Source: Jiangella alkaliphila
GTDB taxonomy: Bacteria > Actinomycetota > Actinomycetes > Jiangellales > Jiangellaceae
Direction: 5' to 3'
Assembly: GCF_900105925.1 (NCBI RefSeq)
Contig: NZ_LT629791.1
Span: 1,612,001 to 1,676,000 of the forward strand
DNA: 64,000 nt
The position numbers and the translations under genes were made by a program. The notes under the pieces are model-generated. The model was given only the letters and a program-made list of their open reading frames with translations, did no database searches and was not told where the DNA came from. Each line of letters opens with the position of its first letter. Position 1 is the stretch's first letter. Shown here in pieces: positions 61,364 to 64,000 of the stretch.

Positions 61364-61799
61364 CGAAACTGGGTCCCGTGACTCCGACACTTGGCCTCAG
61401 TTCGAGCCGCGTAGCGTGGCTGGTGCCCGCTCCACATTGCAGGCGGCGTGTCTCACTAGCCATGTTGGCTGGCACCTTCGGCGCAGCGGGTGGCAGCGGT
61501 CAGTCGATCACGACCGTGGGTCCGGCGGACGCGTGCCTCATTGATATGGTCCCGCGGCGGGTCAGGTGCAGCGATCTCAACCAACGATCCCACCCAGTGA
61601 TCTCGCCCAGTGGCGCGCCGGGGTGGGCGCACTGTCGTCGCGGTCGTGATCGATGTGAGATCGCTGCGGAAACGATGCGGCATCGCTGTGGCGGACGCGA
61701 CAGTGTTCTCACATCGATCAGGCAGCGATCCCACATCGTTGCGCTGGGCAGGCGAACCACACCCCGGCGCGAGCATCGGATCTCGAAGACCAAGCGAAA
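61364..61799. other. 436-bp gap with GATC-rich inverted and direct repeats
   Basis: No credible gene. GATCGATGTGAGA (61648-61660) and TCTCACATCGATC (61707-61719) are exact 13-bp inverted repeats with a 46-nt loop. CGATGTGAGATCGCTGC (61651-61667) pairs with GCAGCGATCCCACATCG (61722-61738) with one mismatch. The motif family CGATCYCA recurs nearby at about 61572-61605 (GCGATCTCAAC, ACGATCCCACC, GTGATCTCGCC). Seven GATC sites fall in about 165 bp. The gap lies between the VOC gene and the convergent MFS gene, so part may terminate transcription; repeat-element origin is also possible. Confidence 0.5.
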
Positions 61800-63023
61800 C
61801 TAGTCGTCGACCTCGACCCGGGCGGGTCGCTGCTCGCGAGCCGCGGGGGAGACGAGGCCGGCCACGACGGCGGCGACGGCGACGACCAGCAGGGCGTTCA
61901 GCACACCCTCGTGGTCGCCCAGCCAGCCGAGGATCGGCGGGCCGGCGAGGAACGCGGTGTAGCCGACCGACGCGACGACGCTGACCCGCGCGGCGGCCCG
62001 GCGCGGGTCGTCGGACGCGGCGCTCATGCCGAGCGGGAAGCCGAGTGCGGCACCGAAGCCCCAGACCACGGTGCCGATCAGCGCGACCGGCAGCGACCCG
62101 CCGAACACGACCAGCAACACACCCGCGGTGGCCAGCACGGCGCTGGTGCGCAGGACCGGCAACCGGCCGAAGCGGTCGACCAGCTGGGTGCCGGCCGTCC
62201 GCCCGACGGTCATGGCGGCGAGGAACACCGCGAAGCCGACCGCGCCGACGGCGTTGCTGACCTCGTAGCCGTCGACCAGGCCGAGCGCCAGCCAGTCGTT
62301 GGCGATGCCCTCGATCAGCGCGGCGCACATGACCATGAGGCCGATGACCAGCGTGCGCGGCTCGCGCCAGGCGACCAGGACCGACACGCGCTCGACCGGC
62401 GTGCCGTCGTCCTCGACCTCGGCGGTGCGGGGCAGGAAGCTGCGGGTGGCCACGAGGGCGACGACCATCGCGGCGACGCTGACGACGGTCAGGTGCACCA
62501 CGACGGGGACGCCGACGGCCGACGCGCCCGCGCCGAGGCCGGCCCCGGCCACCGTGCCGAGACTGAACGCGGCGTGGAACCGCGGCATGACGGTGCGGCC
62601 GAGCAGCCGCTCGACCGCGGCGCCCTCGACGTTCATCGCGACGTCCCAGGAGCCGGAGCCGTACCCGATGAGCACCAGCCCGGCCGCGACCGCGGGGACG
62701 GCGCCGAGCGTGTCGGCGCCCATCCCGGCCAGCGTCAACCCGAGGGCGACCAGCACGGAGCCGCCGGCCACCGTCCGGGCCGCGCCGATCCGGCTGACGA
62801 CCAGCCCCGACGTGGGCAGCGCGACGAGCGAGCCCGCGGCGAGCGCCAGCAGGACGCGGCCGATCTCGCCCGGCGTCAGGCCGAGCAGGTCGCGCACCTC
62901 GGGGATGCGTCCCATCCAGCTCGCGATGGCCAGCCCGTTGAGGGCGAACACCATGGCCACGGCGTTGCGGGCGCGGACGACCCTGGCCTGGTCGGGCGAC
63001 TGGGCCGGAGCGGAGTGGTTCAC
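61800..63023 (-). CDS. MFS transporter, YbjJ-like
   Basis: Twelve-helix permease of 407 residues. It begins ARNAVAMVFALNGLAIASWMGRIPEVRDLLGLTPGEIG, the typical start of the YbjJ/FucP-like MFS group, and has GYGSGSWDVAMNVEGAAVER at helix 4 to 5. GAGGATCC precedes the GTG. The divergent LacI-type regulator and a tandem palindromic operator in the 125-bp gap imply induction by a sugar or sugar-like molecule, so it may be a sugar or sugar-derivative transporter rather than a drug pump. Direction of transport cannot be determined. Confidence 0.88.
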   Translation of the reverse strand: MNHSAPAQSPDQARVVRARNAVAMVFALNGLAIASWMGRIPEVRDLLGLTPGEIGRVLLALAAGSLVALPTSGLVVSRIGAARTVAGGSVLVALGLTLAGMGADTLGAVPAVAAGLVLIGYGSGSWDVAMNVEGAAVERLLGRTVMPRFHAAFSLGTVAGAGLGAGASAVGVPVVVHLTVVSVAAMVVALVATRSFLPRTAEVEDDGTPVERVSVLVAWREPRTLVIGLMVMCAALIEGIANDWLALGLVDGYEVSNAVGAVGFAVFLAAMTVGRTAGTQLVDRFGRLPVLRTSAVLATAGVLLVVFGGSLPVALIGTVVWGFGAALGFPLGMSAASDDPRRAAARVSVVASVGYTAFLAGPPILGWLGDHEGVLNALLVVAVAAVVAGLVSPAAREQRPARVEVDD

Positions 63024-63063
63024 GGCGGATCCTCAGGTGTCAAGACAGCATCAGGTTTGGGGG

Positions 63064-63091
63064 TCGAATCGATTCGATCGAATCGATTCGA
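63064..63091. promoter_or_regulatory. Tandem palindromic LacI operators
   Basis: TCGAATCGATTCGA is repeated exactly, at 63064-63077 and 63078-63091; each copy is itself a perfect palindrome with a central CpG-like CGA-T-CG core, and together they form a 28-bp palindrome. The site is 41 bp from the MFS start and 58 bp from the proposed LacI start, so one regulator could control both genes. TATTCT at 63092-63097 is a candidate -10 for the LacI gene. Confidence 0.8.
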
Positions 63092-63148
63092 TATTCTCCT
63101 ATGGTCGAGGATCGGATGCAAGCGCGAATTTCGGGCGGGAAGGCACCT

Positions 63149-64000
63149 GTGGGCGAGCACCGGGCAACGCTGGCGGCGGTGGCCGCGCGGGCCGGCGTGT
63201 CGCCGTCCACGGCGTCGCTGGCGTTCAGCGGCTCCGGGCCGGTGGCCGACTCGACCCGCGAACGGGTGCTGGCCGCGGCCCGCGAGCTGAGCTACGCCGG
63301 ACCCGACCCGATGGCGCGGTCGCTGCGCCGGGGACGGTCCGGCATCGTCGGCGCCGTCGTCGGCGAGCGGCTGCTCTACGCGTTCCGCGACCCGGTGGCC
63401 GTCGCACTGCTCGACGGCATCGCCGAGGCGCTGAGCCCGTCCGGCACCGGGTTGCTGCTGCTTTCCGGCGACGCCCAGCACGGCAGCCCGACGACCGAGC
63501 AGGTGTCGCGGCTGCCGGTCGACGCCGTCGTGTTCGCCACCTGCGGCCGCGACGACGACCCGCTGCTCGACTTGTTCCTGCGCCGCGGCGTGCCGGTGGT
63601 CGCGGTCGACGGACCCGACAAGCCCGACCTCACCGTGCTCGACATCGACGACTACGGCGGCGCGGCCGAGCTGGCCCGGCATGTCGCGGCGCTGGGCCAT
63701 CGCCGGGTCGCGGTCGCCGCGCTGCCGCTGCGGCTCGACGGCGGCAGCGGCCTGATCGACGACGCCCGCCGTGCCGTCATCGGATTCGCCGACTGCCGGG
63801 CCCGGCTCGACGCCACCGAGCACGTCTTCGGCACCGTGCCGGTCGCCGAGGCGCCCAGCAACGTCGTCGAGGAGGGCGAGCGGGCCGGCCGGCTGCTGCT
63901 CGCCGGCCCGGACCGGCCGACCGCGATCATCGCGCAGAGTGACCTGCTCGCCGTCGGCGTCATCCGGGCGGCCGAGGCGCTCGGGCTGCGCGTCCCCGAC
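63149..64000 (+). CDS. LacI-family transcriptional regulator, 3' end outside window
   Basis: The frame is open from about 63101 to the end of the window. The helix-turn-helix (LAAVAARAGVSPSTASLAFSG) and hinge (ARELSYAGPDPMARSLRRGRSG) begin a LacI protein, followed by the ligand-binding domain (IVGAVVGERLLYA, VVAVDGPDKPDL, LGHRRVAVAALPLR, AIIAQSDLLAVGVIRAAEALGLRVPD). The last visible block is close to the normal C-terminal third, so perhaps 60-100 residues remain outside. GTG 63149 is chosen after GGGAAGG; ATG 63116 and ATG 63101 are in frame too. Ligand unknown; sugars are usual. Confidence 0.9.
   Translation, partial: MGEHRATLAAVAARAGVSPSTASLAFSGSGPVADSTRERVLAAARELSYAGPDPMARSLRRGRSGIVGAVVGERLLYAFRDPVAVALLDGIAEALSPSGTGLLLLSGDAQHGSPTTEQVSRLPVDAVVFATCGRDDDPLLDLFLRRGVPVVAVDGPDKPDLTVLDIDDYGGAAELARHVAALGHRRVAVAALPLRLDGGSGLIDDARRAVIGFADCRARLDATEHVFGTVPVAEAPSNVVEEGERAGRLLLAGPDRPTAIIAQSDLLAVGVIRAAEALGLRVPD

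Follow-up and report, generated by a model that had tools for sequence, protein, structure and literature searches.

Operators of the LacI family have been defined as even palindromes with a central CG, and the distances between neighbouring sites are distributed with peaks at 13, 22, and 32 bp, including those of E. coli GntR at gntKU (Ravcheev et al. 2014, PMC4052901). When the distance is about 13 bp, the two sites overlap within the base-contact zone, the dimers cannot interact, and a special binding mode has been suggested (PMC4052901). The main text of that paper contains none of the words efflux, drug, exporter, or MATE. The locus described here resembles these close pairs, as they are presented there, in that a LacI-family regulator is accompanied by two even palindromes with a central CG, located in one intergenic region and conserved within a lineage. 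It differs from the 13-bp pairs, the contacts of which overlap, in that the spacing is 14 or 15 bp. When the seven contacted base pairs of PMC4052901 are taken as seven per half-site, the contact zones meet without overlap at 14 bp, and a single base separates them at 15 bp.

E. coli LacI belongs to the same protein family and is 25% identical to the regulator encoded at the present locus. The C-terminal tail of E. coli LacI is a tetramerisation helix. Unlike E. coli LacI with its tetramer looping, the present regulator has no C-terminal extension, and its sites are only 14 bp apart. The transporter at this locus is related to E. coli YbjJ, which also has a divergent regulator gene as its neighbour; that regulator is RcdA, annotated as a dual regulator and of the TetR kind, whereas the neighbour here belongs to the LacI family. 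Regulators of the PurR/CytR type, which control nucleoside genes, share with the present system its matches to PurR structures and weaker matches of some targets in one related family to NepI and PunC, but, unlike for those regulators, no purine gene was seen to carry the site.

In the open-access literature searched, mostly at the level of search listings, no matching work was found on LacI regulators together with efflux, MATE, or CflA; the 14-mer TCGAATCGATTCGA occurred in no text, YbjJ gave one unrelated item, and tandem operators gave none. Close LacI pairs are a known kind of arrangement, and neither the family-wide variant at 14–15 bp nor its link to exporter-type genes was met in the texts that these searches yielded.

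Results

The Operator Pair and Its Two Genes

The DNA under study, here called the window, is a stretch of 64,000 nucleotides from Jiangella alkaliphila, a member of a genus of soil bacteria. At its end lie two divergent genes, with the following features:

61800..63023, minus strand: gene for a YbjJ-like MFS transporter of 407 amino acids (Pfam MFS_1, E = 1.8e-26)
63064..63077, no strand: LacI-type operator copy closer to the MFS gene, TCGAATCGATTCGA, free of changes in all 20 aligned Jiangellaceae loci
63078..63091, no strand: LacI-type operator copy adjoining the −10-like element, TCGAATCGATTCGA, exact in 16 of 20 aligned loci
63093..63098, minus strand: GAGAAT, a putative −10 element for the MFS promoter, individually weak; such an element stops 1 base short of the pair in 17 of 20 loci
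63116..63121, minus strand: TTGCAT, a putative −35 element for the MFS promoter, with a 17-bp spacer; its TTGC is unchanged in all 20 aligned loci
63149..64000 in the window, plus strand: gene for a LacI-family regulator (Pfam LacI PF00356, E = 4.5e-11; Peripla_BP_3 PF13377; PF00532)

The MFS protein is similar to E. coli YbjJ across most of its length (43% identity over 369 positions, E = 7e-81); a search of solved structures with its profile gave no match at E 0.01. The lacI gene extends 207 bases beyond the window end, to genome position 1676207, and its probable start, as judged from homologues, is the GTG at 63149 in preference to the ATG at 63101. The encoded protein has an N-terminal LacI helix-turn-helix (HTH) followed by a core resembling periplasmic binding proteins. 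When solved structures are searched with this protein, the best match is 3h5t (8.7e-52), and PurR chains follow after the two best, with E about 1e-29. The HTH core (STASLAFSG) and the hinge leucine are unchanged in all 12 aligned LacI proteins. The hinge leucine of the window protein is L59, which aligns with that of E. coli LacI, L56, the residue that inserts at the central base step.

A previous reading of the window, made from sequence only, had placed two perfect 14-bp copies of a LacI operator between the MFS and LacI genes. Both copies are indeed exact at 63064-63077 and 63078-63091, and the genes diverge as had been stated, MFS on the minus strand and LacI on the plus strand. The orientation "head to tail" in that description is without meaning, as each copy equals its own reverse complement. 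The exact palindrome of 28 bp that it mentioned does exist, but it is the automatic outcome of placing two palindromes edge to edge. Each copy is an even palindrome with a central CG, as expected for the LacI family. The palindrome extends over 14 nt in the copy at 63064-63077 and over 16 nt in the other; the operators of the family have a length of 16-22 nt. The centres are 14 bp apart, which places the pair outside the class of overlapping LacI pairs at about 13 bp.

With at most two mismatches allowed, the window contains two matches to the word, while 100 dinucleotide shuffles contain a mean of 0.08 and a maximum of one, none of them having two. The scan for single copies that the sequence-only reading had called for covered the whole genome of 7,716,500 bases (7.72 Mb), where the exact word occurs only in these two copies and the same word read backward, used as control, does not occur at all. 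At two mismatches or fewer, there are three further places in the genome, and also three for the control word. Since the counts are equal, these candidates for further sites in the same genome were discarded as background.

Judged by eye, positions 61364-61799 of the window, which separate a VOC-like gene from the MFS gene, look non-coding, and several words around GATCGATGTGAGATCGCTG recur there in direct or inverted form.

Immediately beyond the end of the window, an adenosine deaminase gene lies convergent with lacI (L003:4199-5178). Among the best 80 of 427 loci with related LacI proteins, an adenosine deaminase gene occurs within 3 kb of lacI in seven, all of them Jiangella loci (seven of the seven there), and it does so in the window genome too; the other 73 have none within 3 kb, except for a weak edge fragment in Cellulomonas L092. 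A purine link through this gene was considered and rejected as neighbourhood only, since the gene is kept within 3 kb only in Jiangella loci.

Conservation of the Pair and of a Promoter-Like Element in Jiangellaceae

The word TCGAATCGATTCGA is found in 20 of 22 sampled genomes of Jiangellaceae (family f1), and the two in which it is missing are incomplete (81% and 75%). Two exact copies are present in all 12 genomes of the genus Jiangella (g1) and in four of the five of genus g5. In the four Jiangellaceae genomes that have one exact copy, the second copy has one mismatch in three and is degenerate in one, so that two copies can be recognised in 19 of the 20 genomes with the word. Of these 19 pairs, 17 have a spacing of 14 bp and two (G003 and G018) a spacing of 15 bp. 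Both LacI and MFS genes flank the site in all 20 loci, the window locus included. When the 12 Jiangella genomes are aligned, all 28 columns of the pair are invariant, compared with 25 of the 190 aligned columns outside it (gaps counted).

The two copies are not equally conserved. All changes are in the copy adjoining the −10-like element, which has one mismatch in 3 of 20 loci (L004, L017, and L022) and is degenerate in 1 of 20 (L005). In L005 (genome G016), where the decay of this copy has left a single exact site, nature provides a single-site control.

Read along the MFS strand, the conserved order is TTGC, 17-18 bp, a −10-like element (GAGAAT, CAGAAT, CATGAT, or CAGCAT), and then the pair. 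When the best element is chosen by a script, the choice for 17 of the 20 loci is a −10-like sequence (GAGAAT, CAGAAT, or CATGAT) that stops 1 base short of the pair; in L021 the element lies 6 bases before the pair, and in L005 and L020 another place is picked. Compared with shuffled sequences, the promoter score of individual loci has P values from 0.02 to 0.73, with means of 7.0 and 5.9 out of 12 matches for real and shuffled sequences, respectively, and a generic promoter scan found no promoter. With no single locus strong and the generic scan negative, it is the conserved position that points to a promoter-like element here. Given this putative placement of the promoter, the pair would cover the transcription start point of the MFS gene.

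Spacing of the Sites in Related Loci

In naming LacI as the regulator of the operator, the sequence-only reading was most likely right, as judged from the company the site keeps: among the best 80 of the 427 LacI relatives found by alignment, 78 carry at least one site with no more than two mismatches in the 600 bp that precede lacI. The two loci without a site are L044, in which no MFS gene was found, and L064, which lies at a contig end. A divergent MFS gene is present in 77 of the same 80 loci. The 121 sites that they contain at two mismatches or fewer never vary at C2, A5, C7, G8, T10, and G13.

The number and spacing of the sites differ among these best 80 of 427 relatives. Most Pseudonocardia and Geodermatophilus loci have a single site. 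In the Cellulomonas group, 29 of the 37 loci have two sites at a distance of 30-36 bp, around the 32-bp peak of the published distances (PMC4052901), and the other eight have one site. When 97 loci (the best 80 of 427 and 17 more, including the window) are classified by the sites with at most two mismatches upstream of lacI, 44 are single, 29 wide, 22 close, and two have none; Herbihabitans L050 and the f26 locus L141 count as single by this rule despite a weaker second copy 14 bp away, and L139, which has no LacI match, is left out.

A stricter search used pairs of TCGAAWCGWTTCGA with gaps of 0-30 bp in 393 genomes of the class. Such pairs occur in 22 genomes, one in each, with gap 0 in 18 and gap 1 in four, so that the spacing is 14 or 15 bp in 22 of 22. 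They belong to the families f1 (16), f33 (three), and f36 (three). Strict pairs with gaps of 2-30 bp are absent from the 393 genomes, and the backward control gives no pairs. This absence holds for strict copies only, since the wide pairs of the Cellulomonas group mostly have one deviating copy. From the absence of strict pairs with wider gaps, it seems that close packing at 14–15 bp has been selected.

On a tree of LacI proteins, the close-pair label changes three times, and at least two of these changes are forced by well-supported branches. The tree contains 77 of the 97 proteins, L064 and every second row of the Cellulomonas group (19) being omitted, and six loci were labelled by eye; long branches meet in it, and its bootstrap had not yet stabilised. 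The close pairs may have been gained more than once, or they may descend from one old pair that some lineages have lost.

A Predicted Regulon in Family f36

In Jiangella, the predicted sites of this LacI protein are limited to the MFS gene and lacI, while in family f36 they precede lacI and four types of transporter gene. The sample of 20 f36 genomes contains 42 exact sites in 13 genomes and none in seven. All but one (41 of 42) lie within about 200 bp upstream of genes for LacI, a YbjJ-like MFS protein, a MATE protein, a Bcr/CflA protein, or an MFS protein of Cmx/CmrA-AraJ type. Because genome G110 supplied the sites by which the MATE, Bcr/CflA, and Cmx types were defined, the independent count leaves it out and comes to 35 of 36 sites in 12 genomes. 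Only in G150 (L117) does a site fall elsewhere, beside a LacI paralogue of 29% identity. The MATE and Bcr/CflA models are matched above their curated cut-offs, and the Cmx/CmrA model with 4.5e-88, although under its cut-off; some targets also match the nucleoside-transporter models NepI and PunC more weakly. No purine genes carrying the site were seen.

All five target types are present in each of G110, G217, G131, and G366, which belong to genus g63 and in which the lacI and MFS genes lie apart, each with a site of its own. In the f36 genomes of genus g69, lacI and the MFS gene are divergent with one site between them (L112, L113, L115, L187, and L189). Examples of the site loci in the family are L120-L124, L128-L137, and L190. 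The YbjJ-like gene is preceded by a 15-bp pair in G110, G217, and G366, where the other four types have single exact sites. The Cmx-type gene of L127 has an extra copy with one mismatch, 25 bp from the exact site.

It thus appears, from the position of the sites, that LacI in f36 has a predicted regulon rich in exporter-type transporters. A purely exporter reading is weakened, because genes of other kinds also adjoin the sites. Across the MFS site from the transporter gene, a gene for a solute-binding protein of sugar-ABC type starts 215-365 bp away in G110, G131, and G288 (PF01547 for the G110 protein), and across the lacI site from lacI, an SDR gene starts 29-200 bp away in G110, G366, and G131. 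These genes may be further targets.

Loci in which such neighbours were noticed are L123, L134, and L110, with solute-binding-protein genes divergent from the MFS site, and L122, L125, and L135, with an SDR gene at the lacI site.

We tentatively propose, as a possibility that we would not bet on at even stakes, that the clade of LacI proteins with the HTH core given above represses exporters rather than sugar catabolism. In f36, it would control MATE, Bcr/CflA, Cmx/AraJ-type, and YbjJ-like pumps together, and at the YbjJ-like gene the control would take the form of a double lock, in which two dimers are neighbours on different faces of the DNA, their base contacts just meeting, at 15 bp in three f36 genomes (among exact sites only there) and at 14 bp in Jiangella. 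If this is true, an exporter-rich LacI regulon would widen the known roles of a family mainly related to sugars. The three f36 genomes also offer a within-genome control, with an exact pair at one target and single exact sites elsewhere.

Discussion

How Two Abutting Sites May Control Transcription

Quite probably, the pair serves as a double operator on which the LacI-family repressor encoded by the divergent gene acts. This reading builds on the sequences of the sites, their conservation, their position, and their co-occurrence with LacI and MFS genes, and what it predicts is binding, repression, double occupancy, and response to a ligand. A LacI dimer would bind each 14-bp palindrome, with its HTH motifs in the major grooves and its hinge leucine at the central CG. 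Bound directly after the −10-like element, the repressor would block the start of transcription of the YbjJ-like gene. Such local regulation of the MFS gene is supported by the position of the pair at the conserved promoter-like element, an element that on its own is weak; because the pair directly follows this element, blocking of the transcription start is the most likely way in which LacI would repress MFS. The sites lie 57-84 bp upstream of lacI, and for this reason it is probable that the repressor also controls its own gene. A small ligand would release it.

When both sites are filled at the same time, repression would be tighter than with one site. That they can be so filled is probable, since the base-contact zones abut without overlap at 14-15 bp. 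At 10.5 bp per turn, neighbouring dimers would be rotated by roughly 120 to 155 degrees with respect to each other. Control as such does not depend on having two sites, as is seen from the related loci with a single one.

From two abutting sites, the sequence-only reading concluded that there is either cooperative binding or looping. Looping is unlikely, because no loop can form between centres that are only 14 bp apart and because the window protein ends where the tetramerisation tail of E. coli LacI starts. A fixed helical phasing was also considered and rejected, as the distances of 14, 15, and 30-36 bp at related loci have no phase in common; this variation among relatives argues against a contact that needs one exact phase. 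Cooperative binding may or may not take place; the published view that dimers at about 13 bp do not interact (PMC4052901) bears on it as well. The same reading had suggested that the MFS protein may transport the ligand. If so, export would be as likely as uptake, since several of the other f36 targets are of exporter-type families.

Among the alternatives to a doubly filled operator, one deserves serious weight, although we rate it as somewhat doubtful, namely that one dimer binds at a time and that the second copy raises the local concentration of sites, and thereby occupancy and repression. In its favour, single sites suffice in most Pseudonocardia and Geodermatophilus loci, spacing is tolerated at 14, 15, and 30-36 bp, which argues against a fixed protein-protein contact, and in Jiangellaceae the −10-side copy is changed in 4 of 20 loci and the other in 0 of 20. 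Mere local concentration would, on the other hand, not require close packing, and gaps of 2-30 bp are missing in the 22 strict pairs among the 393 genomes.

It is very unlikely that the 28 bp form one long recognition element, read by a tetramer or by another regulator. They are unchanged in 11 of the 12 Jiangella genomes, the twelfth having 29 bp, but G003, G018, and three f36 genomes have an extra base between the two copies, and the related divergon can carry a single 14-mer or a pair at a distance of 30-36 bp. From the extra base and from the single and widely spaced copies follows that the unit is the 14-mer.

Slightly less likely still is a function in RNA, in which the MFS transcript would begin with the palindrome folded into a hairpin at its 5' end. 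The transcribed strand can form a hairpin of 12 pairs, and a stretch of 95 nt folds with z = −2.95, 1 of 200 shuffles folding equally well; a perfect DNA palindrome must, however, necessarily fold in this way. Changes in one copy occur without compensation in the other (L017, L022, L004, and L005), and single 14-mers precede other genes in f36. Chance, or a recent tandem duplication without function, is negligibly probable: a spacing of 14 equal to the unit length resembles a duplication, but the pair is conserved across the family and recurs in f33 and f36, and the repeated label changes on the LacI tree speak against it.

Pairs at about 13 bp have been described as conserved yet difficult to fit to the known structures (PMC4052901). 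How such pairs are bound becomes directly testable when one related promoter occurs in single, 14-, 15-, and 30-36-bp versions and three f36 genomes provide a control within the genome.

The 14-mer beyond the Divergent Pair

The word TCGAATCGATTCGA is found in 57 of the 393 genomes of the class. The regulator looks local, with two copies of the word per genome in Jiangella, and similarly in two f33 genomes and in Geodermatophilus, where one divergon is found at one mismatch or fewer. One Pseudonocardia genome has two exact sites, the divergon and L201, which matches none of the five queried proteins. Four genomes of the Cellulomonas group have 3, 5, 5, and 11 places at one mismatch or fewer. 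No queried protein matched at the sites inspected away from the divergon, L203, L204, and L205 in the Cellulomonas group and L208 in Herbihabitans.

Among 21 loci with the word that were inspected in other families, one (L141) has the LacI/MFS pair and eight have a LacI paralogue of 29-38% identity, while the remaining 12 lack all five queried proteins within about 1.5 kb. By itself, the word does not identify the regulator, and it is not private to the Jiangella type of LacI.

In seven of these 21 loci (L143, L145, L146, L147, L152, L154, and L156, from families f19 and f17), a second palindrome, TCGAAGCGCTTCGA, lies 23-34 bp from the 14-mer; only L152 among them has a LacI paralogue beside it. 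At L144:1501-1527 (f19), two copies of the 14-mer, one of them mismatched, lie 13 bp apart beside a LacI paralogue of 29% identity, a distance that matches the 13-bp peak of the literature.
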